Part shown: piece by piece, positions 1,567 to 47,415 of the stretch
How positions within the stretch are numbered: the first letter of the stretch is position 1
Layout: each line of letters begins with the position of its first letter
From: an uncultured Alphaproteobacteria bacterium
GTDB lineage: Bacteria > Pseudomonadota > Alphaproteobacteria > Caulobacterales > Aquidulcibacteraceae
Assembly: GCA_902826335.1 (NCBI GenBank)
Contig: CADEEL010000010.1
Coordinates: 1 to 64,000, forward strand
Reading direction: 5' to 3'
Length of the DNA: 64,000 nt
Notes under the pieces: generated by a model
The model's input: the letters and a program-made list of their open reading frames with translations, nothing else
The model's database searches: none
What the model was told of the DNA's origin: nothing
Made by a program: the position numbers and the translations under genes

Positions 1567-1575
1567 GAGGCGCGT

Positions 1576-2295: not shown

Positions 2296-2311
2296 GCGAG
2301 GGCGCCGCGCG

Positions 2312-7103: not shown

Positions 7104-7109
7104 CCGGAC

Positions 7110-10363: not shown

Positions 10364-10816
10364 GTGAAAACCGCCCCGACCCTGGCCCGCCGTCGGCTCG
10401 ATGAGCGCCTCAAGGCCTTTGCCGGCCTTGGGGCGGCTCCCCCCATGGGCTGGGTCCGCGCCCTTCGCGACGCCCTGGGCCTCACCGGGGCTCAATTGGC
10501 GCGCCGCCTCGGCATCCGCCCGGCGAGCCTCTCCGAGCTTGAGAAGAACGAAGCGAAAGGCGCCATCACGCTCGCCACCTTGAGGCGCGCCGCAGAAGCG
10601 CTCGATTGCACCCTCGTCTATGCGCTGGTCCCCAATCAGAGCCTCGATGCGATGGTCGAAGAGGCGGCCAAAGCGGCGGCGAAGAAAGAACTCGCCGCCG
10701 CGCTCCACACCATGGAGCTCGAAGCCCAAGGCGTGCGCGCTGGCGACAAGCGCGCCATGCTGGAGGCGCTCGCCGCCGACATCGCCAAGGCTGGCGGCAA
10801 GCGTCTCTGGGGTTGA
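10364..10816 (+). CDS. Mobile mystery protein A (XRE-type HTH)
   Basis: 150 residues, GTG start at 10364. A helix-turn-helix domain spans residues ~28-85 (ALRDALGLTGAQLARRLGIR, then SLSELEKNE), followed by a helical tail. This matches the family called mobile mystery protein A, always found beside mobile mystery protein B on mobile DNA. The pair behaves like a regulator/Fic toxin-type module, although the biochemical function is not established. Two direct repeats sit in its promoter region. Confidence 0.85.
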   Translation: MKTAPTLARRRLDERLKAFAGLGAAPPMGWVRALRDALGLTGAQLARRLGIRPASLSELEKNEAKGAITLATLRRAAEALDCTLVYALVPNQSLDAMVEEAAKAAAKKELAAALHTMELEAQGVRAGDKRAMLEALAADIAKAGGKRLWG

Positions 10817-10821
10817 CGGGC

Positions 10822-11409
10822 ATGAGTGATGATCCGTTCCAGGCTGACGATGCAGCGACGCCGCTGACGCCGGAAGAGCGTCTCGATCTCAAGCTCAGCT
10901 ATGTCGCGCTCCGGCGCGAATTGAACGAGGCCGAGGCGCTCAATGTGCTTGCCGGCGAACGCTGGGCGCTGTCGCGCAAGCGCGACGCGCTCGACGAAGT
11001 ATTCCTGCGCCGGCTGCATTTGCGGATGTTCGGCGATGTCTGGCGCTGGGCCGGCAAATACAGAACCAGCGCGCGCAATCTCGGCGTCGATCACTGGACC
11101 ATAGAAGTCGCGCTACGCCAGGCGCTCGATGACGCGCGCTATTGGGTGGAGCACCAGACTTACTCGCCCGATGAAATCGCCGTGCGCTTTCACCACAAGC
11201 TCGTCGCCATCCATCCGTTTCCGAACGGCAATGGCCGCTGGTCGCGCCTCGCCGCCGATCTGCTCGCACTTCAACTTGGCCAAGAGCGCTTCACCTGGGG
11301 GCGGGGTTCGATCGTGGCGGTGTCTGAGACGCGGCAGGGTTATGTTGGTGCGCTCAAGGCAGCCGATGCTGGCGACATGGCGCTTCTGTTGGCGTTCGCT
11401 CGAACGTAA
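10822..11409 (+). CDS. Mobile mystery protein B (Fic-domain protein)
   Basis: 195 residues starting with the ATG at 10822, five bases after mobile mystery protein A. The Fic core motif HPFPNGNGRWSR (HPFx-G-N-G-R) lies near residues 133-144, so the active site looks intact. Fic enzymes usually transfer AMP or another phosphate-containing group to target proteins. With the HTH partner upstream it could be a toxin-antitoxin-like or stabilising module of the element; function is unproven for this family. Confidence 0.87.
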   Translation: MSDDPFQADDAATPLTPEERLDLKLSYVALRRELNEAEALNVLAGERWALSRKRDALDEVFLRRLHLRMFGDVWRWAGKYRTSARNLGVDHWTIEVALRQALDDARYWVEHQTYSPDEIAVRFHHKLVAIHPFPNGNGRWSRLAADLLALQLGQERFTWGRGSIVAVSETRQGYVGALKAADAGDMALLLAFART

Positions 11410-27906: not shown

Positions 27907-28803
27907 TTAGAACAAGGCGCGCACGCCGAGCACGACGCGTGTCGCCTCGGGAGCGTCGCCGTTCGCCCTGACGAGATTGCGGGTGTCGCCCACGGCGCCG
28001 CTCCATTCGACGCCGACATAGGGAGCAAAGCCCCGCGTGATTTCGTAGCGAAGCCGCGCTCCGGCCAGGACGTTTGAGAGCCCGGCGCCGATCGCAAACT
28101 CCGGTATCTCCTGCGCGGACAGCGTAACTTCTGCGCGAGGCTGCAGAATGAGGCGCTGTGTCAGGCGCAGGTCATATTCCGCTTGCGCCCGCGCGGTGAG
28201 TTCGCCTTCGTTCGAGACGAACAGCGCGCCATCGACCTCGAACCAATAGGGCGCGAGGCCCTGAACGCCGAGCACAAGGTCGGTGCGGTCGCCTTCCGGG
28301 CGGTAGGTCTGACGCACGCCGCCCTGCAGATCGAAATAGGGCGTGACCGCGCGGCTGTAGAGGAGTTGAAGCTCGGCATGTTCGAGATCGCCGTCGAACG
28401 CGCCTTCGCCTTCCGACTTCCACCAGAAGCGGTTGATGTCGCCGCCATACCAGCCTTGCGCATCCCAGGCGTAGCGCTCAGCGCCATTGCCGGACGTTGC
28501 CTCAAGACGATCGAGGATGATGGCGTGCGTGATGACTTCACCGTTCTCCACGCGCAATTGCTCTCTGGCGCCCGCCATCACTGCCGGGTCGAAATAGAGA
28601 TCGGCGGCGTTGGCGGAGCCATCGCCCGCAGCAGTGGGAGGGGCGACGTCGGAGGGCATCTGCATACTATGGCCGGCGTGTGGATCCGCCTCGGCGGGCG
28701 CTGCCAGGATCGGCGGCGTCTGCGTGTGCGCGGAATGATCCTGCGCGGCGGCAGGCGAGATGGTGAGCAGGATCGGCGCGAGGGCGGTAGCGAAGACTCT
28801 CAC
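27907..28803 (-). CDS. copB: CopB, outer-membrane copper protein
   Basis: 298 residues with a signal peptide, a His/Met-containing N-terminal linker (DHSAHTQ, HAGHSMQM) and the CopB outer-membrane beta-barrel domain ending in VVLGVRALF with a C-terminal aromatic residue as required for barrel insertion. PcoB/CopB proteins lower periplasmic copper by an unknown route. Start overlaps the copA stop by four bases. Confidence 0.9.
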   Translation of the reverse strand: MRVFATALAPILLTISPAAAQDHSAHTQTPPILAAPAEADPHAGHSMQMPSDVAPPTAAGDGSANAADLYFDPAVMAGAREQLRVENGEVITHAIILDRLEATSGNGAERYAWDAQGWYGGDINRFWWKSEGEGAFDGDLEHAELQLLYSRAVTPYFDLQGGVRQTYRPEGDRTDLVLGVQGLAPYWFEVDGALFVSNEGELTARAQAEYDLRLTQRLILQPRAEVTLSAQEIPEFAIGAGLSNVLAGARLRYEITRGFAPYVGVEWSGAVGDTRNLVRANGDAPEATRVVLGVRALF

Positions 28804-30545
28804 GATGCAGCCTCATCAAGCGGACGCACCGTGACGACGTTGAACATGCCGGAGTGCATGTGCATCATCATGTGGCAGTGAAACGCCCAATCGCCGGGTG
28901 CATCGGCGGTGAGATCGAAAGACAAGCGCCCGCCCGGCGCGACGTTTACGGTGTGCTTCAAAGGCTGATTGCCAGCGTGGCCGTTGACCAGTTCGAAGAA
29001 GTGTCCGTGCAGATGGATCGGGTGCTGCATCATCGTGTCGTTCACGAGCGTGACTCGAACACGCTCGTTGCGCTCAAAGCGGATCGGTTCGACGATCTCG
29101 CTAAAGCGGCGGCCGTCGAAGCCCCACATATAGCGTTCCATATTGCCGGTCAGGTGGATCTCCAGCGTGCGGGAAGGCGGACGCGTGTCGCGGTTCGGGT
29201 TGAGCGCGACGAGATCGGTGTAGACGAGGACGCGATGGGGCTCGTTCTCCAGCCCGAGCGGACGCTCGGCCAATCGGTTCTCGGGCATCGGCGAGATGCT
29301 TTGTACGCCGACGCCAACCGCCATGTTCGGCGGCGCGAGCGTTGGATCGCGCATGTTCATCGCGCCATGGTCCATCGATCCATGATCCATGCCGCCGGCG
29401 CCGTGATCCATGGCGCCCATGTTCATGGCCCCCATATCCATACCCATGTCGCGCATGGTGAGATTGGGGACTTGGCGGAGCGGGGGAATTTCCGCGCTCA
29501 TGCCAAGGCGTGGCGCAAGCGTGGCGCGGCCTAGCCCTGAGCGATCTACAGCTTCCGAGACGATTGTGTAGGCGCGATCATCGCGCGGCGTGACGATGAC
29601 GTCATAGGTTTCCGCCACCGCGATCTGGAATTCATCGACTTCAACGGGGCGCACATTCTCGCCGTCGGCTTGCACCACACGCATCGGCAGGCCTGGAATG
29701 CGGACGTTGAAGTTCGTCATCGCCGAGGCGTTGATGATCCGAAGGCGCACGCGCTCGCCGGGCGCAAACAAGCCAGTCCAGTTTTCCTGCGGCCCGTGGC
29801 CATTGACGAGATAGGTGTAAGTCGAGCCGGTGACGTCGGAGATGTCGCGCGGGTCCATGCGCATCTGCGCCCACATGCGCCGCTCGGAAGCGCTCATGCG
29901 GTCTTCGCCGGAAAGAAGCCCGGCGATTGTCGTGCGCTGTCGGTTGAAAGAGCCGGGGCTGGCCTTGAGGCGGCGCAGGATTTCGTGCGGGTGGAGGAAG
30001 CTCCAATCGGAAAGCACGATCACGTGCTCGCGGTCGTAGGCGACAGAATCGGCGCCCGCAGGATCGATGATCAACGGACCGAAATGACCCATCGCTTCCT
30101 GCAGCCCTGAATGGCTGTGATACCAATAGGTGCCCGACTGGCGAACATGGAAGTCGTAGGCGAACGTCTCGCCAGGGCGAATGCCCGGGAAGCTGACGCC
30201 CGGCACGCCATCCATCTGGAAGGGCAACAGAACGCCATGCCAGTGGATGGAGGTGTCTTCATCCAGCGTGTTGGTGACCGAGAGGCGCGCGTGCTGGCCT
30301 TCGCGCAGGCGTATAAGCGGCGCCGGCAGCGTGCCGTTGACGGTGATGGCGTGACCGGTGCGGCCGCCGACACTGAAGGGCGAGTGGCCGACGGTGAGCG
30401 CAATATCCGGTCCGCTGAGCGTTGCGAGCGTTGGCGCAACGCCGCGCGATCCTGTCTGCGCCCAGGCAGGAAAAAGCGCCTGCACGCCAGCGAGCGCGCC
30501 GGCGCCCGCGAAGGCCTTCAACACTTTCCGGCGCTCTACTGACAC
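28800..30545 (-). CDS. copA: CopA, periplasmic multicopper oxidase
   Basis: About 581 residues. The GTG at 30545 is preferred: an AAGGAG ribosome site ends six bases before it, and it gives a Tat-type signal (ERRKVLKAFAGAG). All copper ligand blocks are present: HWHG, WYHSHSG, HPIHLHGHFF and HCHMMMHMHSGM. A Met/His-rich insert (MGMDMGAMNMGAMDHG and following) near residues 370-410 is typical of CopA/PcoA, which oxidises Cu(I) to Cu(II). First gene of the copABC-type operon and downstream of a CueR-type promoter. Confidence 0.94.
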   Translation of the reverse strand: MSVERRKVLKAFAGAGALAGVQALFPAWAQTGSRGVAPTLATLSGPDIALTVGHSPFSVGGRTGHAITVNGTLPAPLIRLREGQHARLSVTNTLDEDTSIHWHGVLLPFQMDGVPGVSFPGIRPGETFAYDFHVRQSGTYWYHSHSGLQEAMGHFGPLIIDPAGADSVAYDREHVIVLSDWSFLHPHEILRRLKASPGSFNRQRTTIAGLLSGEDRMSASERRMWAQMRMDPRDISDVTGSTYTYLVNGHGPQENWTGLFAPGERVRLRIINASAMTNFNVRIPGLPMRVVQADGENVRPVEVDEFQIAVAETYDVIVTPRDDRAYTIVSEAVDRSGLGRATLAPRLGMSAEIPPLRQVPNLTMRDMGMDMGAMNMGAMDHGAGGMDHGSMDHGAMNMRDPTLAPPNMAVGVGVQSISPMPENRLAERPLGLENEPHRVLVYTDLVALNPNRDTRPPSRTLEIHLTGNMERYMWGFDGRRFSEIVEPIRFERNERVRVTLVNDTMMQHPIHLHGHFFELVNGHAGNQPLKHTVNVAPGGRLSFDLTADAPGDWAFHCHMMMHMHSGMFNVVTVRPLDEAAS

Positions 30546-30579
30546 GATGATCTCCTTGCCTGTCATTCAGGACGCGTTC

Positions 30580-33353: not shown

Positions 33354-35732
33354 ATGAACGCTCAAGCCCACCATCATCACGAGCACGACCAGCCCGCCGA
33401 GCTGCGTGATCCCGTTTGCGGTATGATTGTGAAGCCGGATACGCCGCATCGGCTCGCGCACAATGGCGCGGACGTCTTGTTCTGCAGCGCTGGCTGCAAA
33501 GCCAAGTTCGCGGCCGCCCCTGAGAAATACGTCGCGTCTGACGCTGACGGTGCGCACGCGGCGTGTCACGCGCATGGGCATGCCCACGCGGCGCCGAATG
33601 CAGCGCCGGCGGAGGTTCCGAAGAGCGCGAAATGGACGTGCCCGATGCACCCCGAGATCGTGCGCGACGGACCGGGTTCGTGCCCCATCTGTGGCATGGC
33701 GCTGGAGCCGATGACGCCGACCGCCGACGCCGGGCCAAATCCCGAGCTGATCGACATGACGCGCCGTTTCTGGATCGGCGCGGCGCTCGCCGCGCCTGTC
33801 CTCGTGTTGGAAATGGGCCGGCATTTGTTCGGCATCGACGGAATCGTGCCGGCGTTGTGGAATCCGTGGCTTCAATTTCTCTTGGCCACACCGGTCGTGC
33901 TGTGGGCGGGCTTTCCATTCTTTGAACGTGGCTATCAATCGCTGCAGACGCGCAACCTCAACATGTTCACGCTCATCGCGCTGGGAACAGGCGTGGCGTG
34001 GATCTACAGCGTCGTTGCGCTCCTCGGGCCAAGTCTGTTTCCGCCTGAATTCCGCGATGCGCACGGACAGGTCGCGGTTTATTTCGAGGCGGCCGCGGTG
34101 ATCACGGTCTTGGTTCTTCTCGGCCAAGTGCTGGAGTTGCAAGCGCGCGAGCGCACCGGCGGCGCCATTCGCGCGCTCTTGGATCTCGCGCCGAAGACGG
34201 CGCGGCGTATCACGGACGGCGCAGAGGAAGAGGTCACGCTTGACCAGATCGCGGTTGGCGATCGCTTGCGCGTGCGCCCCGGCGAGAAGATCCCGGTGGA
34301 CGGGATCGTTCAAGATGGGCGTTCGACAATCGATGAATCCATGGTGACGGGCGAGTCGATGCCGGTCACGCGTGAAGCCGGCGCCCGCGTCATTGGTGGT
34401 ACGCTCAATCAAACAGGGGCGCTTATCATCGAGGCTGACCGCGTCGGCGCCGACACCATGCTCTCGCGCATCGTGCATATGGTTGCCGACGCGCAGCGGT
34501 CGCGTGCGCCAATCCAGAGGCTCGCCGACAAGGTCTCGGGTTGGTTTGTGCCAGCCGTTATCGCCGTTGCGGTCGTTGCGCTCATTGCATGGTGGGTGCT
34601 GGGGCCGTCGCCGGCGTTTTCCTACGGGCTCATCGCGGCGGTTTCCGTGCTGATCATCGCGTGTCCGTGTGCGCTTGGTTTGGCTACACCGATGTCGATC
34701 ATGGCTGGCGTTGGACGCGGCGCCCGTGCGGGTGTCCTGATCAAGAACGCCGAAGCGCTTGAGCGCTTCGAGAAGGTCGATACGCTCGTTCTCGACAAGA
34801 CAGGCACGCTTACCGAAGGAAAGCCTGCGCTGATCGCGATCAAGACGGCTCCCGGCCAAACCGAAGCAGACATATTACGTCTCGCCGCGAGTCTCGAAAA
34901 CCGGAGCGAACACCCGTTGGCGCTGGCGATTGTCGCGGCAGCACGGGAGCAAGGTCTGTCGCCGGCGGAACCAAGCGATTTCGACTCTCCGACCGGGAAG
35001 GGCGTCATTGGCGTCGTCGAAGGACGCAAGGTCGCTCTGGGCGCCGAGAAATATCTGTCAGAGCTGAAGGTAGATACGAGCCACTTGCGCTCTCAAGCGG
35101 AAGAGCTTCGCCGCGACGGCGCCACCGCCATCTTTGTAAGTGTCGACGGGGTCGCAATCGCCGTTCTGGGCATTGCTGACAAGATCAAGGCGACAACGCC
35201 CGATGCGCTTGCGGCTCTGAAGGCGCAAGGCATCCGCTTGGTGATGCTGACCGGCGACAACCGCACGACGGCTGAGGCCGTGGCGCGCAAGCTTGGCATC
35301 GACACGGTCGAAGCGGAGGTGCTGCCAGAAGACAAGTCCCGCATCGTGGCCCGGTTGAAAGGCGAAGGCCGGGTGGTGGCCATGGCGGGCGACGGCGTCA
35401 ACGATGCGCCGGCGCTCGCGGCCGCCGACGTTGGCATCGCCATGGGGACGGGAACGGACGTCGCCATCGAGAGCGCCGGCGTGACGCTGCTGCACGGCGA
35501 CCTCGCCGGCATCGTTCGCGCACGCGCAGTCTCGCGCGCGACGATGAACAACATCCGCCAGAACCTGTTTTTCGCCTTCGCCTACAACGCGGCCGGCGTG
35601 CCGATCGCCGCTGGCGTGCTCTACCCGATCACCGGCGATCTCTTGTCGCCGATGATTGCGGCTGCGGCGATGGCGCTGTCTTCTGTTTCGGTGATTGCGA
35701 ACGCGCTGCGTCTGAATTCGGTCAGGGTCTGA
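33354..35732 (+). CDS. copA: CopA, Cu(I)-exporting P1B-type ATPase
   Basis: 792 residues. N-terminal His-rich start (AHHHHEH), a YHS/TRASH-like domain (RDPVCGMIV...[11 protein letters not shown]), a second metal-binding domain ([10 protein letters not shown]...[12 protein letters not shown]), then the ATPase core: CPC transport motif ([13 protein letters not shown]), [15 protein letters not shown] and [12 protein letters not shown]. It pumps Cu(I) out of the cytoplasm. Two stand-alone heavy-metal N-domains replace the usual HMA domain. The last 112 bp overlap the opposing hydrolase gene. Confidence 0.95.
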
Positions 35733-36673
35733 CGCCGTTGGCGAGAGGAGGGCGGTCTTTGGTCGCCCTCCTTTCGTTGTAACTGCCCAGTCGTCATCTT
35801 GTGCGCGAGATCATCATTGATGAAGGCGCGAACCGCCTCAACAAACCATGCGCGTCGATCGACGTGGATGTAGTGCCCGCCGCCGTCCGCGACGCGTTGA
35901 CGAGCGCCAGGATAGCGCACTGTGAGGTCTTGCTGAACGGTTGACCACAAGACATCGAAGTCGCTTGGGTTTGCAGGCAGCGGCCGAGACAGAACCAGCA
36001 CAGGTCTTCCGTGCGCCGTATCAATTCGTTCGACTTCGTGGACGCTCATCGGCAGCGCTGCCAGTTCCGCGCGGCCGCCCTCGGGCAGGGTCCAGGCCAT
36101 GGATGCAGGCGGCGTGCATGACGAGATGCCGGCGTCCTCGCAGCGGCGGGTGAAGTCCGCGGGCCGGGATTCCTCCAGGACCACGCCCAAGATCTGATCT
36201 GGGTGCTGAGCTGCGAAATATTCCGCGTAAAGTCCGCCCAACGAATGGCCGACCAACACATAGGGACCGCTGGCGCCGGACTGTTCCAACACTGCGGACA
36301 ACTCCCGCTCCGCAGCCGCCGCATCACGCGGGCCCGATGTCGGGTCACTGCCGCCATAGCCGGCCCGATCGTAGAGGACCACGGTTGCAGTCGCTGCAAG
36401 TTCGGGGGCGATATCGTGGAAGGTGGCCATGCCATCGCCCAAGCCGGAGATCATGACGATCGTGGGCTCGCCCGCGCCAAGCACCCGGTAGGCAATGCGA
36501 TGACCGTCGATGTCGGCGAACCGTAAGTCGCGCGGCGCGGTTGCGCATGAAGGTGCGGCTAGCAAGAGCGTCAGGGCCAAGGTCATGTGGGCTGCCGTTC
36601 GCGCCGCACGCGCAGATAGCGCGGCAATGGGTGAGAGGGGGTGAAATTGGCGGGGGCTCATCGGGGACCTCAC
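35621..36673 (-). CDS. Alpha/beta-hydrolase lipoprotein with antisense C-terminal extension
   Basis: 350 residues. A hydrophobic N-terminal region ending LLLAAPSCA is a probable lipoprotein signal. The fold motifs are clear: ISGLGDG (oxyanion region), GHSLGG nucleophile elbow ([15 protein letters not shown]), and the late catalytic His in [12 protein letters not shown]. Normal members end soon after VRAFIND; here about 60 further residues run into the complementary strand of copA, which suggests the native stop was lost. Substrate unknown. The ATG at 36661 is an alternative start. An inverted copy of the 20-bp motif lies 48 bp upstream. Confidence 0.8.
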
Positions 36674-36720
36674 TGGCTTCGGGGCTGGTGAGCATTGCTC
36701 TAGGCGCCTCCCGCGGCGAG

Positions 36721-36740
36721 CGCTTGAACGTAACAGCTAC
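36721..36740 (-). promoter_or_regulatory. 20-bp shared motif, copy 1 (inverted)
   Basis: Read on the minus strand this is GTAGCTGTTACGTTCAAGCG, matching 18 of 20 positions of the motif at 37590 (17 positions are identical in all three copies). It sits between the hydrolase and AraC-type regulator genes, where it could serve either. See the entries at 37590 and 39720. Confidence 0.6.
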
Positions 36741-36825
36741 CCTCATCTCCTCAGCGGGCGCGCTTGCGTGCCAGGATCCATTCGTTAGCGATGCGGCGCC
36801 CGCGTGATTGCTGTATGGTGGCGAA

Positions 36826-37593
36826 ATGGAGACAATCGCATCCGGTCGCATTGCGGTTTGGGAAGGCGGCAGCCTTTGGGTGTTCGACGTGCCGCGCGCG
36901 GGCGCGGCGCCCAGCCGCACCGAGATGCATGCGCATCATGCGTTTCAGCTCACGTTTTCACTTGGCGGCAGCTTCACGTTCAGCGTTGAGGAGGGCGTTG
37001 TGCCCGGTCCTTTCGCCATCGTGGCGCCGGATACGCTGCATGCCTTCCAGGCGCAAGGCTTGGTATCGCATCTGTTTGTCGAGCCGGAAGGTCGTGCAGG
37101 GCGCACGCTTGAGCAATTGATGCAGGGGCGGCAGGTCGCGACCATGACCGCCGCACAAGCGCAAGATTCACCCGATCTCATTCTCGCAGCATTTCGTCAT
37201 TCACAAGATCCGAGAGACGCGCTGCGCCAGGTGGGGATGAAGATCACCGATCGCATCGCGGGTCATGCGCGCGTGGCCGAGCCGGACCGTCGGGTGCGTC
37301 AGATCATCAAATGGGCAATCGAAAATCTGGATCGGTCGCTCGGGATCGAGGAGGCCGCACGCGGCGTTGGCTTGTCTCCAAGCCGGGCCAGCCACTTGTT
37401 CGTCGAGGAAACCGGTCTCCCATTTCGCACTTACGTGCTTTGGCTGCGTCTGGTGCGCGCCGTCGATGCACGCATTGCCGGCAGGACGCTCACAGAAGCC
37501 GCACAGGAGGCTGGCTTTTCCGATTCCGCGCACCTTAGTCGCACGTTCAAACGCATGTTCGGCTTACCCGCCGCAGCGCTCGAAATGTCGTAG
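36826..37593 (+). CDS. AraC-family transcriptional regulator
   Basis: 255 residues from the ATG at 36826. N-terminal cupin-like sensor (MHAHHAFQLTFSLGG, then GPFAIVAPDTLHAF) and a C-terminal double helix-turn-helix (LGIEEAARGVGLSPSRASHLF and TLTEAAQEAGFSDSAHLSRTFKR, each given in part). It is followed by the metallothionein gene and is the only regulator in this module, so it is the obvious candidate for binding the shared 20-bp motif. The His-rich cupin entry could bind metal; the inducer is unknown. Confidence 0.88.
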   Translation: METIASGRIAVWEGGSLWVFDVPRAGAAPSRTEMHAHHAFQLTFSLGGSFTFSVEEGVVPGPFAIVAPDTLHAFQAQGLVSHLFVEPEGRAGRTLEQLMQGRQVATMTAAQAQDSPDLILAAFRHSQDPRDALRQVGMKITDRIAGHARVAEPDRRVRQIIKWAIENLDRSLGIEEAARGVGLSPSRASHLFVEETGLPFRTYVLWLRLVRAVDARIAGRTLTEAAQEAGFSDSAHLSRTFKRMFGLPAAALEMS

Positions 37594-37609
37594 CCGTTTC
37601 GTTCAAGCG
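37590..37609 (+). promoter_or_regulatory. 20-bp shared motif, copy 2, upstream of the metallothionein
   Basis: GTAGCCGTTTCGTTCAAGCG, overlapping the stop codon of the AraC-type gene and ending 74 bp before the metallothionein ATG. It matches the motif before the phytochelatin synthase at 19 of 20 positions, and that copy ends 76 bp before its ATG. Same orientation and nearly the same distance argue for a shared activator site. Confidence 0.68.
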
Positions 37610-37683
37610 GCTCGACGCTCCTGGGTTCAGATAGGGCGTGTCCTCACGGACCACGCATAACACCTAACCCAATGGAGATGAAA

Positions 37684-37818
37684 ATGAGCAACACTCCCGC
37701 CTCTCGCGTCAAGACATCCAGCACCGTCGGCTGCGCGTGCGGCCCGACCTGCCGCTGCGGTGACAAGTGCCGCTGCAAGAAGACTTCTTGCGGCCCGACC
37801 TGCCGCTGCGCGTCCTGA
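37684..37818 (+). CDS. Small metallothionein-like Cys-rich protein
   Basis: 44 residues, ATG at 37684 with GGAG six bases upstream; in-frame ATGs at 37672 and 37678 lie in or before the ribosome site. Nine cysteines, all in C-x-C or C-x3-C spacing: GCACGPTCRCGDKCRC, then KKTSCGPTCRCAS, with CGPTCRC occurring twice. The first 16 residues are Cys-free. This is the composition of a metallothionein that wraps soft metal ions (Cu, Cd, Zn). It does not look like the cyanobacterial SmtA or mycobacterial MymT types; small size makes family assignment tentative, but chance cannot explain this pattern. Confidence 0.85.
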   Translation: MSNTPASRVKTSSTVGCACGPTCRCGDKCRCKKTSCGPTCRCAS

Positions 37819-37824
37819 AGGCTA

Positions 37825-37860
37825 CGGCCCGAGCTTCTCTTGCCAGAGAAGTTCGGGCCG
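37825..37860 (+). terminator. Strong hairpin after the metallothionein gene
   Basis: CGGCCCGA-G-CTTCTCT pairs with AGAGAAG-T-TCGGGCCG around a four-base loop (TGCC): a 16-bp stem with one G-T pair, seven bases after the stop. There is no following T-run, so it may be a 3' stabiliser or a Rho-assisted terminator rather than a classical intrinsic one. Confidence 0.6.
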
Positions 37861-37905
37861 ACCCGCCGCGTTGTACTTCCCGGACCTGATGTCGATCGAA
37901 GGCGA

Positions 37906-38688
37906 ATGATCATGGAATACGTTGTTGGTGTCGTTCTCGGGCTCGGCGTTTGCGGGCTTGGAACGTGGGCGGGACTAGAACGAGACCGGGCCTTGTACCC
38001 GGTTATGATGATCGTGATTGCCTCCTATTATGCTTTGTTTGCGGTCATCGGCGGCGACGGACGCGCCCTTGGAATCGAAATCGCGATCTCGATAGTATTC
38101 GTTGGCCTCGCAGTGATTGGTTTCAGGACCAGTCTTTGGATTGTTGCGGCGGCCATTCTCGGACATGCCGGATTCGATGTGGTTCACGGCCATGTGGTCG
38201 CCAATGGAGGTATGCCCGTCTGGTGGCCCATGTTCTGCGCCAGCATTGATGCGTTCGCGGCATTGTACCTTGCGTGGCGACTTCTTTCGAAACGGATCGA
38301 TGCGCACAATCGCCTAACCTTCGGCAATCGCATCCGCGCTTACGTCGAAATCGAGTTGGAAGCCGCGCGCGCAGCGGAGCACGCTGGCGAGCCTCTCGTA
38401 GCCTTTCATCATCTCGAGCGCGCGCACGTGCTGGGCCAGAAATCGACCGTGCAACATGTTCGCGTACACATCCGGATGTTCTTCTGGGGGCTGCGCCACC
38501 ATAAGCACCGTGAAATTCTAGGCCAGATGACGCGGTTGATCGGTGCGGCGGCGGTGACCTGGGTCGGGCTTGTCCCTCAAGGAAACACCGGCGGGTCGAA
38601 TGTAAGTGCGTTCAAGTCGATGCCGATCCCCGACGATCTCGCCGACCTTATCGATGTCGCGCGCTTGCCACGGCAATGGTTCAACTGA
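37906..38688 (+). CDS. Membrane protein fused to a DUF3703 domain
   Basis: 260 residues from the ATG at 37906. The first ~130 residues hold four to five membrane segments and resemble the DUF6010 type (ERDRALYPVMMIVIASYYALF, in part). Residues ~150-255 match DUF3703 (AFHHLERAHVLGQKSTVQHV, HIRMFFWGLRHHKHREILGQ), normally a separate ~110-residue protein found near metal or aldehyde stress genes. The fusion is unusual. His-rich spacing suggests metal or haem binding, but no function is known. Confidence 0.68.
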   Translation: MIMEYVVGVVLGLGVCGLGTWAGLERDRALYPVMMIVIASYYALFAVIGGDGRALGIEIAISIVFVGLAVIGFRTSLWIVAAAILGHAGFDVVHGHVVANGGMPVWWPMFCASIDAFAALYLAWRLLSKRIDAHNRLTFGNRIRAYVEIELEAARAAEHAGEPLVAFHHLERAHVLGQKSTVQHVRVHIRMFFWGLRHHKHREILGQMTRLIGAAAVTWVGLVPQGNTGGSNVSAFKSMPIPDDLADLIDVARLPRQWFN

Positions 38689-38710
38689 GCCCCAACGCGA
38701 AGGATATGCC

Positions 38711-39691
38711 ATGCTAGCCGTTTCTTGCCGTCGCTACGGCGCCCCAGACGTGTTGAAGATCGAAGAGGTAGCGCGCCCCACGCTCAAGGCCGATGAAGTG
38801 CTGGTTCGCGTTCGCGCCAGCAGTGTGACCTCCGGCGATGTGCGTATGCGGGCCTTTACCGGGGCCGGCATCTTTTGGCTGCCGATGCGGTTGCTGTTTG
38901 GCGTACTACGCCCACGCAACCCAATCACTGGGATGGAGTTCGCGGGAACCATCGCGGCTGTTGGCAAAGGTGCGACCGGATTTCGCGTCGGCGACGCGGT
39001 TTTCGGCATGAAGATCGGCGGCGCCAATGCTGAATTGCTCGCTGTTCGCGAAGCGGGCGCGATCGCCGCCAAACCCGATGGTTTGACACTTGAAGAGGCG
39101 GCCGTCGTACCGTTCGGGGCTCTCTCGGCCTTGGCGTTCTTGCGGGACTTTGTGCAGATCAAGCCCGGACAGAAGATCCTCATCCATGGCGCGAACGGCG
39201 CAGTGGGTGTGTTTGCGGTTCAGCTTGCCAAGCATTTTGGCGCGCACGTCACTGGCGTTTGCAGCACGGCCAATCTTGACCTCGTCACCTCGCTCGGCGC
39301 CGATCAGGTGATCGACTATTCCAAGACCGATTTCACGCGGGGGCCGGACGTCTATGATGCGATCCTTGATACCGTTGGGAGCACGTCATTTTCGCGCAGC
39401 AAGCGCGTGCTTGCGCCATACGGACGCCATGTCTTCGTCGTGCAGACGCTGACGCAACTTCTGCAGGCGCTATGGACCTCATTGCGGCGCGGCAAGCGTG
39501 CCATTGTCGGATTTTCCAGCGGCGATTCAAAAGAGGACCTTCTGTTGATCAAGGGGCTGATCGAAACGGGCCGGATCAGACCTATGCTTGATCGGACTTA
39601 TCGATTGCCGGACATTATTGACGCCCACCGCTATGTGGACACCGGCCGAAAGCGCGGCGGCGTCGCGATTTCAATCGGCGCTGCGCCCTAG
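38711..39691 (+). CDS. Zinc-independent medium-chain oxidoreductase (quinone-oxidoreductase type)
   Basis: 326 residues from the ATG at 38711, 22 bp after the DUF3703 fusion. MDR fold: N-terminal catalytic domain (SSVTSGDVRMRAFTG, GMEFAGTIAAVGKGATGFRVGD in part) and an NAD(P)-binding domain with HGANGAVGVFAVQLAKHFGA. The zinc ligands of classical alcohol dehydrogenases are absent. Likely reduces quinones or reactive carbonyls with NADPH. Probably in one operon with the preceding gene. Confidence 0.85.
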   Translation: MLAVSCRRYGAPDVLKIEEVARPTLKADEVLVRVRASSVTSGDVRMRAFTGAGIFWLPMRLLFGVLRPRNPITGMEFAGTIAAVGKGATGFRVGDAVFGMKIGGANAELLAVREAGAIAAKPDGLTLEEAAVVPFGALSALAFLRDFVQIKPGQKILIHGANGAVGVFAVQLAKHFGAHVTGVCSTANLDLVTSLGADQVIDYSKTDFTRGPDVYDAILDTVGSTSFSRSKRVLAPYGRHVFVVQTLTQLLQALWTSLRRGKRAIVGFSSGDSKEDLLLIKGLIETGRIRPMLDRTYRLPDIIDAHRYVDTGRKRGGVAISIGAAP

Positions 39692-39719
39692 TTTTCACGC
39701 CCAAGCCTGAGCGGCGATT

Positions 39720-39739
39720 GTAGCCGTTTCATTCAAGCG
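39720..39739 (+). promoter_or_regulatory. 20-bp shared motif, copy 3, upstream of phytochelatin synthase
   Basis: GTAGCCGTTTCATTCAAGCG; one mismatch to the copy in front of the metallothionein. It begins 29 bp after the oxidoreductase stop and ends 76 bp before the synthase ATG. TTCAAG within it could act as a -35-like element (overlap typical of AraC activators). Confidence 0.68.
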
Positions 39740-39815
39740 TCCCACGGTCAGCCTAACCTAGAACGGTGCAGGACAGAGACCATAAGCGATCCTCTCGTCG
39801 AAGGGACATTGAGAG

Positions 39816-40520
39816 ATGCGGGAAACCTTCCACCGTCGTGCGCTGCCAACAGACGCGATTGCCTTCTCATCGCCCGAAGGCAGAGGCCTGTTCTCAGAGG
39901 CGCTGGCGAGCGCAGGACTGAATGGATACTTCCCACTCGCCGAGCAGTTTCACACCCAGTCAGAACCAGCTTTCTGCGGACTTGGATCGCTGGTCGTGAC
40001 GCTCAACGCGTTGTCCATCGATCCGGGACGCTCGTGGAAGGGACCATGGCGTTGGTTCGCAGAGGAAATGCTCGACTGCTGCGCGCCGCTTGCAGACATC
40101 CGCGAACGCGGCGTGGACGTTGAGGAATTTGCCTGCCTGGCGCGTTGCAATGGCGCTGATGTCGAAGTCCGTCGGGGCGACGTTTCGAATCTGGAAGCGT
40201 GGCGCGCTGCGCTTGCAATGGCGGCCAGCGGCGAGGCGGTGGTTGTCGCCTCCTACGACCGCGCAGCGATGGGACAGACCGGGAGCGGCCACTTCTCGCC
40301 GATCGGCGGGTACCACGCGCGCAAGGACCTCGCGCTCATTCTCGACGTCGCGCGCTTCAAGTATCCGCCGCACTGGGTGTCGGCTGAGCGGCTTTGGCAG
40401 GCAATGGCGTGTGTTGATCCGACGACAGGTCTAGCACGCGGATGGATCGTCGTTCGCCGTAGCGCTGGCGCGCGCATTACCGACCCCGGTGGATGCTGCG
40501 TTCCTGAAGGTGCGATTTGA
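39816..40520 (+). CDS. pcs: Phytochelatin synthase (plant-type catalytic domain)
   Basis: 234 residues, GAGAG before the ATG. The whole protein matches the catalytic domain of eukaryotic phytochelatin synthases: EQFHTQSEPAFCGLGSLVV with nucleophile C54, LNALSIDPGRSWKGPWRWF, MLDCC, GQTGSGHFSPIGGYHARKD with H159, and LILDVARFKYPPHWV with D177. The triad spacing equals that of the plant enzyme (Cys56-His162-Asp180). It joins gamma-Glu-Cys units of glutathione into metal-binding phytochelatins. The Cys-rich C-terminal sensor domain of plants is absent. Bacterial homologues I know are far more divergent and mostly hydrolytic. Confidence 0.93.
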   Translation: MRETFHRRALPTDAIAFSSPEGRGLFSEALASAGLNGYFPLAEQFHTQSEPAFCGLGSLVVTLNALSIDPGRSWKGPWRWFAEEMLDCCAPLADIRERGVDVEEFACLARCNGADVEVRRGDVSNLEAWRAALAMAASGEAVVVASYDRAAMGQTGSGHFSPIGGYHARKDLALILDVARFKYPPHWVSAERLWQAMACVDPTTGLARGWIVVRRSAGARITDPGGCCVPEGAI

Positions 40521-40561: not shown

Positions 40562-41059
40562 TTGGGAGAAGTAGGGGGACTCATTCTTAGGGTTGGTCTC
40601 GTCGGAATCGGCGCGACGCTGATTTTGGACCTTTGGTCGCTTCTCCTGAAAACGATCTTTGGCGCGCCCTTCCCGAATTACACGATGGTGGGACGCTGGA
40701 TTGGATATTTTCCACGCGGTCGCTTCGTGCATAGGTCCGTCGTTGAGGCGCCCTCTATTTCCGGTGAGCGTCTCATCGGGTGGATGGCGCATTACGGCAT
40801 TGGAATCCTGTATGCCGGCCTTCTGGTGGCTTTTGCCGGGGTCGATTGGTTGAGTGCTCCGACCGCCCTTCCTGCCATGATCATTGGGATCGTGACCGTC
40901 GCGGCGCCATTCTTCATTATGCAGCCGGCAATGGGCGCGGGCTTCGCCTCGTCAAAGGCGGAGAAACCTAACGTCGCCCGGGCTAGGAGTTTGGCCGCTC
41001 ACGCAGCATTCGGGTTTGGGCTTTATCTTTCGGCCGTCGTCGCCGCATCTCTCGCATAG
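40562..41059 (+). CDS. DUF2938-family membrane protein
   Basis: 165 residues with four membrane segments; the start is a TTG at 40562, chosen because a perfect AGGAGG lies five bases upstream. VGIGATLILDLWSLLLK, GRWIGYFPRG and HYGIGILYAGLL are typical of DUF2938 proteins, whose role is unknown. It lies 41 bp after the phytochelatin synthase and probably belongs to the same transcript. Converges on the ATP-grasp gene. Confidence 0.75.
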   Translation: MGEVGGLILRVGLVGIGATLILDLWSLLLKTIFGAPFPNYTMVGRWIGYFPRGRFVHRSVVEAPSISGERLIGWMAHYGIGILYAGLLVAFAGVDWLSAPTALPAMIIGIVTVAAPFFIMQPAMGAGFASSKAEKPNVARARSLAAHAAFGFGLYLSAVVAASLA

Positions 41060-41131: not shown

Positions 41132-42418
41132 CTAGATGAAGAAGACCGGCGCGAAGCCGCCGCCCGCGGTGCGGAAGTTGGTCGTCTGTCCTTGATAGAG
41201 CCGGGCGGCGGCGAGCAGAGGCTCGCCTGCATAGGTGTAGAGGCGGACATCGACTTTGCGCTGCACCCGTTCGCCGTCGACTTTGATCGTGCGTTCGCCG
41301 GGCGGTGCGAAGTCCTGGGCTATGTAGGCGCCTTTGCGAATGCTCTCCCAAACGCCCTTCGTCAGCTTGTCGCCGCGATAGACTGCTTTGCTGGCGTGGC
41401 CTGACGCCGGCTTGAAGAAGAGGCCTTTTCGTTCGCGCCAAAGCGCCTCGGCATTGTCCCGTGTGACGTTGACCGCGTGCGGCACGCCGGCCAGAGCCGC
41501 GACCGCCAAGGCGTCCAATCCCCAGCTGCGCAGTGTCTCGCGGTCCGAGAGCAGGGTGAGATTGCGCTTGTCCGAGAAGAGCGCGTGATTGTGCGGATTA
41601 GGGGTCACAACGACCGCGCCACCTGCATAGGCTGTTCGCAAGGCCGTATGACGGGGATCGTCGAGAGCGAAGTCGACCAGACGGTTGTAGACAACATCGA
41701 TCGGGACGCCCCCCGCCTGAAGCACGTCGCACTCGAAACGCAGCTCGGCCGGATCGGCGATCACGGCCTGGTAACCGCGGCGTTCGAACAGGCGCTGTGC
41801 CAGAACGAATTCGGGATAGAGATATTGATCCTGCGGCGCGTCATCGACGATGGCGATGCGCTGGAGTGCGTCGGTTTTGGCTTGGTGGCGCCATTCCGCT
41901 TCGAACATGTCGATGACGCGGTCTTCGAATTGCGCGACGGACTGGCGCGCAAGTCCCTGCTCGACTTCGGCGCAGCAGGCGATCTGCGCCTGCGCCAGAA
42001 ACGCATTCAGGAATGCGCCGCCGGCATTGGTGTTGATTTCGATAAGCTTCGGACCATCGGGCGTCAGATGAAAATCATAGCCCATGAAGGCGCCAAGTGG
42101 TCCGTGATCGGTTCCGGCGATGGCGGGCGCCCAGGAGAGGGCGGCTTGCTGGTACATGGGCAAGCGCGCGGCGACTTCAATCGCGCGCACGATCGCTTGC
42201 ATCGCTTCACCATCCACCTTGGGAAGAAACACGGGCGCATGAGAAAACAAGTTCGGGCGGGACTGAATAAAGCCCTCGAAGAAGGCGGCGTCGCCTGCTT
42301 CATTCTGCAGCGCCGACGCTAGTGCGTCGCGGTCCAGCGTCACGCAAAAACATTCGCGGTTGAGTAGGTCTGCCGCTGTACGGGATTCGGGGAGAGTCAC
42401 GTTTCGAGCCTCACTCAT
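41132..42418 (-). CDS. ATP-grasp family ligase-like protein
   Basis: 428 residues from the ATG at 42418 (a GTG at 42448 adds ten). The N-terminal half has LGAFMGYDFHLTPDGPKLIEINTNAGGAF, shown here only for the key EIN-TN acidic/metal-binding end (KLIEINTNAGG), and the C-terminal half KGLFFKPASGHASKAVYRG (ATP-binding lysine loop) and YIAQDFAPPGE. This is the ATP-grasp plan of glutathione-synthetase-like amide ligases, but which acid and amine it joins is unknown. Its placement next to a glutathione-polymerising enzyme is suggestive. It faces away from the second trb operon. Confidence 0.7.
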   Translation of the reverse strand: MSEARNVTLPESRTAADLLNRECFCVTLDRDALASALQNEAGDAAFFEGFIQSRPNLFSHAPVFLPKVDGEAMQAIVRAIEVAARLPMYQQAALSWAPAIAGTDHGPLGAFMGYDFHLTPDGPKLIEINTNAGGAFLNAFLAQAQIACCAEVEQGLARQSVAQFEDRVIDMFEAEWRHQAKTDALQRIAIVDDAPQDQYLYPEFVLAQRLFERRGYQAVIADPAELRFECDVLQAGGVPIDVVYNRLVDFALDDPRHTALRTAYAGGAVVVTPNPHNHALFSDKRNLTLLSDRETLRSWGLDALAVAALAGVPHAVNVTRDNAEALWRERKGLFFKPASGHASKAVYRGDKLTKGVWESIRKGAYIAQDFAPPGERTIKVDGERVQRKVDVRLYTYAGEPLLAAARLYQGQTTNFRTAGGGFAPVFFI

Positions 42419-42537
42419 GGCGTGGCGGATAGCACTGTCCAACGCCACAGCGGCAGCGATGGCCTAAGAGTTGGACGGGCGAACCCAGACCTTAGCTCAC
42501 ACCTGTCCTCCAAGGACCACCTTATGCGTCATAGCCC

Positions 42538-43725: not shown

Positions 43726-44778
43726 ATGGACCCCGCACAGGTCAATTCCTTCCTGGATCAGTTCCTGGCCATGGCCTCCAACGGCTTTGGGCTGATCCAG
43801 GGCGATGTGACCTATGTGCTGAACGCGCTCATCGCGATCTCTATTGTTCTGGCCGGCATGCAATGGGCGTTAATGCAGGAGGCGCCGCTCGCGCCCTTCT
43901 TCAGGAAGGTGCTGTTCATCGGCTTCTTCGCGTTCCTCATCAACAATTGGAATGCCATCGCCACGGCCATCAATCATTCCGGCGCTCTGCTCGGGCTCCG
44001 CGCCGGGGGCTCGTCCTTAACCCTGGCCGATCTTCACAATCCGGGACGCATCGCCAGCATCGGCACGGAATTGTTTGGCCGCACCGTCGTTCTTGGTGAG
44101 GGCATGAACATCATCACCGACTTCGTGCCGCTGATCACGATCTATGTCGCTGCGTTCTTTGTGATGATCGGCTTCTTCCTGCTCGCGCTGCAGCTCTTTG
44201 TCGTGCTGATCGCTTTCAAGCTCGGCAGTCTAGCAGCGTTCGTGGCTTTGCCATGGGGCGTGTTTAGCGGCACGGCCTGGATTGCCGAGCGCCCGCTGGG
44301 CTGGGTGGTCGGCTCCGCCGTGCGGCTTTTCGTTCTTGGCTTTGTCGCCTCCATTTCTATCACCTTCGTCAATTCGCTCCCGGCGACGCTGACACTCGAT
44401 GCAGGCGGTGCGCTCAACGTGCTCCTGTTCGGTCTGACCGTGATGGCGCTCGCCTGGTTTGGACCGGTGCTGGCGAGCGAAGTGGTGCAGGGCCAACCGC
44501 ATCTGTCCGGCGCCGATGCGTTCCGCGCCGGTCTCGGCGCGACCGTCATCGGCGGTGGCGCTGCGCTCGCTGGCGGTGTCGTAGCGACGCGGATGGCGAT
44601 CGGTGGCGCACGTCTTATCGGCAGTGCCGGCGGCGCAATCAGCAGAGCTAAGTCAGGTGGCGGCGGAGGAGGCGGCGGCAAAGGCGGCGGCGCGCCGAAG
44701 CCCATCAATTATTCCGGTATGCAGCCAAAACCTGCGCCACCGCCATCATCGCCATCGTCTGGGGGAAGCAATCCATGA
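43726..44778 (+). CDS. trbL: TrbL, second copy
   Basis: 350 residues, starting MDPAQVNSFLDQF 13 bp after trbJ'. Multiple membrane segments as in the first copy; the body is clearly homologous (shared DVTYVLNALI, EAPLAPFFRKVLF, MNIITDF, LPWGVF) with the difference concentrated in the C-terminal Gly-rich tail. Intact frame, overlapping trbF by four bases. Its operon lacks trbB-E in this window, so the channel could only work with ATPases supplied elsewhere. Confidence 0.9.
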   Translation: MDPAQVNSFLDQFLAMASNGFGLIQGDVTYVLNALIAISIVLAGMQWALMQEAPLAPFFRKVLFIGFFAFLINNWNAIATAINHSGALLGLRAGGSSLTLADLHNPGRIASIGTELFGRTVVLGEGMNIITDFVPLITIYVAAFFVMIGFFLLALQLFVVLIAFKLGSLAAFVALPWGVFSGTAWIAERPLGWVVGSAVRLFVLGFVASISITFVNSLPATLTLDAGGALNVLLFGLTVMALAWFGPVLASEVVQGQPHLSGADAFRAGLGATVIGGGAALAGGVVATRMAIGGARLIGSAGGAISRAKSGGGGGGGGKGGGAPKPINYSGMQPKPAPPPSSPSSGGSNP

Positions 44779-45458
44779 AGACGCCATTCACGGCGCCTGC
44801 ACAATCCTACGCAGGAGAAGAAGGTGACACGCCTTACAAGCGCGCGCGTCAGGAATGGGATCGGCGCATGGGCGCGGCGGTCATTTCGGCGCGCGCGTGG
44901 CGGATGATGGCGATCGCCGGTCTGGCGCTATCGGCAGGTCTAGCCCTCGCGCTGACCGTCGTCGCGCTTCAGCAGCGCACCTTCGTTCATGTCGTCGAAG
45001 TGAGTCCGGAAGGGCAGGTCATGAATGTGCGCGCCGCCAGCGGCGACTGGCGGCCCAATGATGCGCAGACCGCTTATCATCTGGGACGGTTTGTGCGTCT
45101 TGTGCGCGGTCTCCCAACCGACGGCGTGGTGCTGCGCGAGAATTGGCTTGAGGCTTACAAGTTCCTAACGCCGCAAGCCGCCGCGCAACTGACCGAAATC
45201 GCGCGCCAAGACGACCCCTTTCTCAGTCTCGGTCGTATCGGACGGACAGTTCATATCCGCTCCATCATCCAGCGCTCGGATCATGCCTGGGAAGTGTCCT
45301 GGATCGAGCGTGAGACCAACGCCACCGGATCGCCGGACGGGCAGGCCTATTCAGGCGTGTTCACCGTCACGACCCGGGCGCCGCGAACCGCCGACGAGAT
45401 CGCGAACAATCCGCTCGGTCTTTGGATTTCTGAATTCTCCTGGAGCCGTGTGCGATGA
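44775..45458 (+). CDS. trbF: TrbF, second copy
   Basis: 227 residues, the same length as the first copy and the most conserved pair of the two operons (for example DTPYKRARQEWDRRMGAAVI and NWLEAYKFLTP are shared). One membrane anchor at ~45-65 and a VirB8-like periplasmic domain. Four-base overlaps on both sides. Intact. Confidence 0.92.
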   Translation: MKTPFTAPAQSYAGEEGDTPYKRARQEWDRRMGAAVISARAWRMMAIAGLALSAGLALALTVVALQQRTFVHVVEVSPEGQVMNVRAASGDWRPNDAQTAYHLGRFVRLVRGLPTDGVVLRENWLEAYKFLTPQAAAQLTEIARQDDPFLSLGRIGRTVHIRSIIQRSDHAWEVSWIERETNATGSPDGQAYSGVFTVTTRAPRTADEIANNPLGLWISEFSWSRVR

Positions 45459-46336
45459 GAATTGCATCAATGCTCGCCGTGGCTGCTTTCGTCGCCATGG
45501 CCGAAGCGCCACCGATGGCGTTCGCGCAGGAGGCGCAGAGCCAATGTCCGGCAATCAACGCTAGCGCGCCGCAAGCCGCCGCGTCTCGGCGGGGACGCGC
45601 GCAATCGTCAGTGGAGCTGCTCGCCGCCGCCAACGGCGCCGCGCGCCAAAGGCCGGACAGAGAGAGCTTCGCGCAGGCGCGCCAGATCTACACCTACGCG
45701 CCCGGCGCCATCTATGAACTCTACGCCAATCCCAATTTCATCTCCGCGATCCTACTGGAGCCGGGCGAAACGCTGAACGATGTCGCTGCAGGCGATACGG
45801 CGCGCTGGATGGTGACCGAAGCGCAGGCGGAAGCCGAAGTAGACGGACGCACGATTGTGCTCGTGAAGCCGCAAGCCGCAAATCTGCGAACCAACATTGT
45901 GCTCGTGACCAGCCGCCGCACCTACACGATCGAAGCGGTGGCGCAATCGGGGCAGACGTATTCTACCGAGATCGCCTGGTGTTATCCCGAGCGCGCCGCG
46001 CCAAGCGCGAATGTGAACGACCTCAATTTCAGCTACCGCATCCGCACCACGCGAGGGTCAAGACCCGTCTGGCTACCAACGCGCGTCTTCGACGATGGGC
46101 GACGCACCTGGATTGAGATGCCGTCGCAAGCATCCTCTACAGATTTACCGCCTCTGTTCGTCATCACGGGCGAGGGCGTTGAGCTGGTGAATTATCGACT
46201 GCAAGGCGATCGCTACATGGTCGATCGTGTGTTCGACGTCGCTGAGCTTCGGCTCGGGACGCGATCGCCGATCATCGTGCGGCTTGAACGTGAGAGGCAT
46301 GAAGCGCCGCCCGCGCGCCGGATCGGGAGGCCCTGA
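45455..46336 (+). CDS. trbG: TrbG, second copy
   Basis: 293 residues with a signal peptide (cleavage near AFAQE). VirB9/TrbG domains with ARQIYTYAPGAIYELY and PPLFVITGEG, as in the first copy. The stop overlaps the trbI start as TGATG. Intact frame; differs from copy 1 mainly in the signal peptide and the C-terminal tail. Confidence 0.92.
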   Translation: MRIASMLAVAAFVAMAEAPPMAFAQEAQSQCPAINASAPQAAASRRGRAQSSVELLAAANGAARQRPDRESFAQARQIYTYAPGAIYELYANPNFISAILLEPGETLNDVAAGDTARWMVTEAQAEAEVDGRTIVLVKPQAANLRTNIVLVTSRRTYTIEAVAQSGQTYSTEIAWCYPERAAPSANVNDLNFSYRIRTTRGSRPVWLPTRVFDDGRRTWIEMPSQASSTDLPPLFVITGEGVELVNYRLQGDRYMVDRVFDVAELRLGTRSPIIVRLERERHEAPPARRIGRP

Positions 46337-47415
46337 TGAGCACTTTGGCATCAGCGCCGACGCCGGGGCCGGACCTCTCCATCCGCGCGCGTGCGCCAAG
46401 TCCGCGCCGTCTGTCGCGCAAGGTCTTGCTTGCCGGCGCGATAGCCGCAGCGTCCGTCGTCACGCTGGCGCTGTTTTACGGATTGAGCGATCGGCCGCGC
46501 CGCAACGCGGCGGAGGCCGGGGCCGTCGCCGCTGCGGGCGGTCCTCCGGAATCCATCAGCAATGCCGCAAGCCAGTATGTGGCGACTGATCTGCCTGGGG
46601 GGCGGCTTGATCCGCCGCAGGACATTGTCTGGGGCGATCACCCGCCGCCACAGCCAGCCGAACTGTCGCCGCCGCAAGACGCAAGCTGGCGTGGCGGCGG
46701 CGCAAATCCTGGCGCGTCTCCCGCCGCCGCGCCTGATCCGCAAACGCTTGCCCGCGCCTCGCCGATCATCTTTGCCGGCCGCGATGAGGCGCCGGGCGTT
46801 GCGCGCGAAGACGAGGCGCGGCTGGACTCCCGTCTGGTGCCGCCGCGATCCCGCTATGAAGTTATTGCAGGCTCGGTGATCCCTGCCGCGCTGGTGACAG
46901 CCCTGAACTCCGATCTGCCGGGGAGCGTCATCGCTCAGGTTACTTCGAATGTGTATGACAGCGTCAGCGGCGAGTATCTGCTCATCCCGCAGGGATCGCG
47001 GCTGATCGGCGAATATCGCTCCTCGCCATCCTATGGTGATCGCAGACTGCTGCTCACCTGGAACCGGCTCATCTTTCCGAACGGCTGGTCGATCAGTCTG
47101 CGTGGCATGCAAGGCGCTGATCCATCCGGCGCCTCGGGGTTGCGCGACCAGACCGATAATCATCTGGGGCGTCTGGCTGGCGCCGTTGGGCTTTCCGCGA
47201 TCGTGAGCGTCGTCGCCGACAACGCCCAAAACGACAATGCGGACAGCTTTGGTCAGAGCGTCGGCGATGCTGCCGCCGCGGAGGCCGCGCGCACGGGCGG
47301 AAGGATCATCGACCGCGAACTGCAGGTGCGTCCCACCCTCCGGGTGCGCGCGGGCGCTTCGGTCCGCGTGCTCGTCACCCGCGACATCCAGCTGAGGCCG
47401 TATCGGGTCCAATGA
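46336..47415 (+). CDS. trbI: TrbI, second copy
   Basis: 359 residues. One membrane helix near residues 30-48, Pro-rich linker, and the VirB10/TrbI domain with LLIPQGSRLIG and RLIFPNGWSISLRGM. Shares DLSIRARAPSPRRLSRKVLL-like N-terminus with copy 1. Starts in the trbG stop and overlaps the HTH gene by four bases. Intact. Confidence 0.92.
   Translation: MSTLASAPTPGPDLSIRARAPSPRRLSRKVLLAGAIAAASVVTLALFYGLSDRPRRNAAEAGAVAAAGGPPESISNAASQYVATDLPGGRLDPPQDIVWGDHPPPQPAELSPPQDASWRGGGANPGASPAAAPDPQTLARASPIIFAGRDEAPGVAREDEARLDSRLVPPRSRYEVIAGSVIPAALVTALNSDLPGSVIAQVTSNVYDSVSGEYLLIPQGSRLIGEYRSSPSYGDRRLLLTWNRLIFPNGWSISLRGMQGADPSGASGLRDQTDNHLGRLAGAVGLSAIVSVVADNAQNDNADSFGQSVGDAAAAEAARTGGRIIDRELQVRPTLRVRAGASVRVLVTRDIQLRPYRVQ

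Follow-up and report, generated by a model that had tools for sequence, protein, structure and literature searches.

What is a phytochelatin synthase (PCS) with the catalytic signature of plant enzymes doing on a bacterial mobile region, where did it come from, and what might it make there? The gene lies at positions 39816-40520 (+) of the window, i.e., the whole 64,000-nucleotide stretch of alphaproteobacterial DNA analysed here, and forms a complete open reading frame with an ATG start and no internal stop that encodes 234 amino acids. As the first-pass annotation had proposed, this product is a complete plant-type PCS catalytic domain: it matches profile PF05023 over positions 2 to 210 of 210 with 280.9 bits (E 6.2e-84; curated cut-off 24.9 bits) and is the sole PF05023 match in the genome. 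The protein stops at residue 234 with PF05023 as the only domain found, and the C-terminal PF09328 domain of land plant PCS is absent. The window gene is a genuine member of the PCS family with a plant-type catalytic signature, and the profile match, individual residues, trees and AlphaFold/Foldseek comparisons agree in classifying it as a half-size group 2 ("E", plant-type) PCS composed of the catalytic domain only. The bacterial plant-type branch of the family to which it belongs is already partly described.

Direct reading of the residues confirmed the proposed catalytic triad C54/H159/D177, which is invariant across 32 aligned sequences, and all residues needed for catalysis are present. 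The plant spacing that had been claimed for this triad holds exactly for the His-Asp distance, which is 18 residues in both the window protein and Arabidopsis AtPCS1, and to within one residue for the Cys-His distance (105 versus 106). Group 2 PCS are defined by a Glu or Asp at position -4 from the catalytic Cys plus CC and CxxxC motifs (PMC11314372), and the window protein carries each of these with E50 four residues N-terminal of C54, C88/C89 within an MLDCC motif, and C107 and C111. In the alignment, these four cysteines correspond to AtPCS1 C90, C91, C109 and C113, which mark the plant enzymes, and T47, R180 and Y183 are the counterparts of AtPCS1 T49, R183 and Y186. An AlphaFold model built from 32 sequences (mean pLDDT 88, pTM 0.87) has the papain-like PCS fold. 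Nostoc Alr0975 accounts for all nine of the top-ranked Foldseek matches (TM 0.83-0.89 on target); the PCS structures matched include 6th5, 6tjl and 2btw (best-match TM 0.87 on target), and the glutathione-bound and acyl-enzyme structures 6tjl and 6tho are also among the fold matches. Sequence and fold searches of the Protein Data Bank with the window PCS gave Nostoc-type PCS only, and this compact 234-residue protein offers a plant-type catalytic domain for structure work.

For comparisons with eukaryotes, four PCS sequences (Arabidopsis, S. pombe, wheat and C. elegans) served as approximate references. The AtPCS1 reference scores 303 bits against PF05023 and 302 bits against PF09328, and the S. 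pombe PCS reference scores 285 bits against PF05023; gross errors in these two sequences are unlikely because of these high scores, though single residues may differ. The window PCS is 53% identical to the AtPCS1 reference across 214 residues, with gaps at 2 positions, so that the similarity noted in the first-pass annotation is real but was mildly overstated as "very high" and "gap-free". Land plant PCS have the same triad and cysteine pattern, yet they carry the C-terminal PF09328 and are not the sister group of the window PCS in the tree. Identity drops to 44% for the S. pombe PCS reference and to 33% for Nostoc Alr0975 (NsPCS, group 1 "N"), from which the window protein had rightly been set apart: Alr0975 is likewise half-size with the same fold and triad, but it lacks CC/CxxxC and has Asn in place of the Glu before the catalytic Cys (PMC11314372).

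Scanning bacterial genomes brought up 60 relatives of the window PCS. The nearest comes from a Hyphomonas MAG (L005; 95% identity over 166 residues), followed by a second alphaproteobacterial MAG copy (L037; 83%), myxobacterial MAG copies (74%) and gammaproteobacterial MAG copies (73% and 70%), with many cyanobacteria and further myxobacteria at 56-64%. The myxobacterial and gammaproteobacterial group 2 enzymes L002, L003, L006 and L007 (67-74% identity) belong to the same clade as the window PCS; three of them (L002, L003 and L006) differ from it by an extra C-terminal domain of about 140 residues, for a total of 360-363 aa, and the order of the neighbouring genes is not that of the window. 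Cyanobacterial group 2 PCS (e.g., Microcoleus, Scytonema and Nostocales) resemble the window protein in being bacterial and in having the same triad, CC/CxxxC and an acidic residue before the catalytic Cys, with catalytic domains about 58-64% identical for the Microcoleus and Nostocales loci, but they are mostly about 380-407 aa long with a C-terminal domain and fall into another subclade. Such group 2 "E" enzymes have already been published from cyanobacteria (PMC11314372), and the assayed plant-like PCS of Geitlerinema sp. PCC 7407, which we liken to the window protein via its published description, makes PC2-PC4 with cadmium at about 0.1% of the Arabidopsis activity (PMC7411734). The earlier view of bacterial PCS as diverged enzymes acting mainly as hydrolases is therefore outdated. 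Our survey extends the described range of bacteria with plant-type PCS, as far as we found it, to alphaproteobacteria, gammaproteobacteria and many myxobacteria.

The 53% identity to the AtPCS1 reference and the common plant-type motifs are what would speak for a eukaryotic source, be it a plant, an alga or another lineage, from which the window bacterium or its near relatives received the gene, and the first-pass annotation had indeed suggested transfer between domains of life. The trees place the gene among bacteria instead. In a maximum-likelihood tree of 74 sequences rooted on Nostoc-type sequences, the window PCS and the two alphaproteobacterial copies form a clade (support 100/99) that is next joined by gammaproteobacteria and myxobacteria (98/85 for 9 sequences, 98/95 for 15), and the two plant sequences, both approximate, adjoin the cyanobacteria with modest support (92/77); the placements of S. 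pombe and C. elegans were disregarded as long-branch rows. A second maximum-likelihood tree of 49 sequences with long-branch rows left out gave the same placement, with 98/89 for the window PCS, L003 and L007 and 95/92 for 13 sequences. In both trees the window PCS falls in group 2, which is split from the Nostoc-type group 1 with 100/100 and 100/99 support, respectively, and is nested with an ordinary branch length in a well-supported Myxococcota/Pseudomonadota clade. The first-pass annotation had itself named such a position, firmly inside a large bacterial clade with ordinary branch lengths, as refuting its proposal. When the topology was constrained to unite the window clade with plants, the log-likelihood fell by 27.6 units (AU p 0.0044; plant sequences approximate), which places the window PCS outside the land plant clade, and its nearest copies, at 73-95% identity, are all bacterial. 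Rejected by both trees and the AU test, a eukaryote-to-bacterium transfer is scarcely credible to us, and from these sequence comparisons an origin by transfer from land plants is already refuted. The source of the gene was other bacteria and not a plant, and it arrived on a mobile region that carries metal resistance. Because the deepest group 2 branches are bacterial in both trees, the plant-type enzyme itself looks bacterial in origin, a view that our findings support.

A stretch of the window at 36663-40312 (+) has a counterpart on the Hyphomonas MAG contig (L102/L005) with 88.8% DNA identity over a blastn alignment of 3,653 columns (3.65 kb), and Hyphomonas belongs to a different family of the same order as the window genome. 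At the head of this block stands an AraC-family regulator (36808-37593, +; PF12833; 94% identical in L005), followed by a membrane domain fused to DUF3703 (37840-38688, +, with a likely ATG start near 37912; PF12487, 132 bits), a zinc-type alcohol dehydrogenase / quinone reductase-like protein (38606-39691, +; PF13602, PF00107 and PF08240; 90% identical in L005) and PCS. The PCS gene occurs in one of the four genomes of the genus, that of the window, and is absent from the other three; among 60 genomes of the family, only two besides the window genome have a homologue, both distant. The 89% identical block in Hyphomonas together with this absence from relatives in genus and family points to horizontal gain, and the block can be taken as evidence of recent movement between bacteria, with a plant-type PCS gene passing between bacterial families along with a metal-resistance block. 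Searches of IMG/VR and a phage collection for phage or viral carriage of PCS gave no match.

Between the window and L005, PCS shows a synonymous divergence of 0.29 and a dN/dS of 0.074, which is the lowest value and hence the strongest constraint among the four block genes (0.15-0.19 for the other three); dN/dS against L037 is 0.11. The low value against L005 implies that PCS was under purifying selection during most of the period after these two copies split, despite the now-broken Hyphomonas copy. The L005 (at 5498) and L037 (at 5264) copies both break at residues 166-167, after HFSPIGGY, with unrelated sequence following, and L037 has an additional frameshift near residue 155. With its two nearest alphaproteobacterial relatives broken in this way and the close relatives L002, L003 and L006 being longer, the window gene might be viewed as a functionless leftover of a longer bacterial PCS, truncated and in decay. 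We consider this very improbable, given that the reading frame is intact, that all active-site residues are kept, that dN/dS is low in both comparisons, and that several bacterial lineages have intact PCS of similarly short length (232-256 aa).

The mobile setting described in the first-pass annotation was borne out by two sets of trb conjugation genes that flank PCS in the window, one at about 70-6010 and the other at 43726-47415 (+; trbL, trbF, trbG and trbI; TIGR02783, NF010446, TIGR02775 and PF03743). Their TrbG copies are 68% identical, and two such diverged sets on either side of metal-resistance cargo suggest two nested or neighbouring elements. The cargo comprises copper resistance CopA/CopB genes (27907-30566, -; TIGR01480, 815.6 bits; PF05275, 289.5 bits), a heavy-metal (copper-type) P1B ATPase with E1-E2 ATPase, HMBD and YHS domains (33354-35732, +), and further metal genes for a CzcA/CusA-type efflux system and a heavy-metal resistance protein. 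Metal ATPases are also frequent neighbours of cyanobacterial group 2 PCS, lying at most 5 kb from PCS in ten cyanobacterial loci (mostly of one Nostocales lineage) and in Sorangium. Heavy-metal P-type ATPases commonly flank the plant-type PCS of loci L019, L024-L028, L035, L060 and others in cyanobacteria. The same mobile region of the window further carries a CBASS-like anti-phage set of an E2-like protein, an oligonucleotide cyclase and a SAVED-HNH effector (6399-9183, -) as well as a Fic-domain protein matching the candidate defence models PDC-S04 and SoFic (10606-11409, +).

We know of no assay of any proteobacterial group 2 PCS, the window protein included. The reading that we favour, with a probability of roughly two in three, is that a bacterial group 2 PCS cut down to its catalytic domain was brought in from other bacteria as mobile metal-resistance cargo and serves as a metal-activated enzyme making mainly PC2 for detoxification; metal activation, phytochelatin synthesis and benefit to the cell are what we infer. 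In the proposed mechanism, C54 would attack glutathione, with H159 and D177 completing a papain-like triad, and release of glycine would leave a gamma-Glu-Cys acyl-enzyme. A metal-glutathione thiolate (Cd, Zn, As or Cu) would then enable transfer of the acyl group to another glutathione molecule, so that mostly PC2 and a little PC3 would form, and the phytochelatins would chelate cytosolic metal alongside the efflux pumps. The glutathione substrate should be available because a glutathione synthetase (gshB) and a glutamate-cysteine ligase family protein (gshA) are encoded elsewhere in the genome. A metal-activated enzyme making mainly PC2 is expected by analogy, because the Geitlerinema PCS makes PC2-PC4 with Cd and the N-terminal catalytic domain of AtPCS1 alone is described, as cited in PMC11314372, to yield phytochelatins of low polymerisation. 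Counting against phytochelatin synthesis are the missing C-terminal regulatory domain and the low activity, about 0.1% of that of Arabidopsis, of the assayed plant-like cyanobacterial enzyme (PMC7411734). Detoxification by phytochelatins is in turn disfavoured by the fact that no exporter of phytochelatin-metal complexes was identified here. Bacteria also lack a vacuole for storing such complexes.

Unlikely, though a serious contender, is a window PCS that acts mainly as a hydrolase removing glycine from glutathione or glutathione conjugates, as Nostoc Alr0975 does, with little if any phytochelatin produced. The protein is half-size as Alr0975 is, its closest solved structures are those of Alr0975, and a role in xenobiotic handling would suit its dehydrogenase and AraC neighbours no less than one in metal handling; however, it retains all the group 2 hallmarks absent from Alr0975 (E50, CC and CxxxC; PMC11314372), and metal-resistance genes surround it.

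A membrane protein and DUF3703 adjoin PCS not only in the window but also in Hyphomonas L005 and two gammaproteobacterial loci, L003 and L007, where the gene order differs (DUF3703-PCS-membrane protein in L007, PCS-membrane protein-DUF3703 in L003, as separate genes in both). L037 has a partial DUF3703 directly 5' of PCS, and at L050, a more distant gammaproteobacterial locus, a membrane protein, an AraC regulator and a dehydrogenase adjoin PCS. Since DUF3703 is rare (7 of 337 genomes of the class), its repeated link to PCS is unlikely to be chance. DUF3703 is also present without PCS, frequently alongside AraC and in one case alongside the membrane protein; we therefore rejected it as an exclusive partner of PCS, which, from the gene neighbourhoods, appears to have joined an already existing uncharacterised module. 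It is a more speculative and rather doubtful idea that the small membrane protein and DUF3703 constitute, together with PCS, a dedicated bacterial metal-detoxification unit in which the membrane/DUF3703 pair would handle phytochelatin-metal complexes, e.g., by export or sensing. If true, this unit would stand in for vacuolar storage in bacteria.

Two other neighbours were considered and discarded as partners. A DUF2938 membrane protein directly 3' of PCS (40562-41059, +; PF11158, 201.5 bits) did not recur beside PCS at other loci in the neighbour comparison. The open reading frame at 41132-42448 (-) encodes a 438 aa protein that appears ATP-grasp-like by eye, belongs to a conserved uncharacterised family with members in 32 of 150 genomes of the order, and gave neither a Pfam match nor a significant one in the Protein Data Bank; as a candidate for glutathione synthesis it was rejected on account of these missing matches and because it is far commoner than PCS and not beside PCS at the other loci compared. 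A plasmid search for close relatives of the window PCS gave only cyanobacterial plasmids at 58-59% identity and distant homologues, and the plant-type PCS of Scytonema (L025) is plasmid-borne. In Polyangium (L040, 2797-3926), PCS is preceded by genes resembling, by eye, an arsenate reductase and a methyltransferase, which hints at an arsenic context at this locus.
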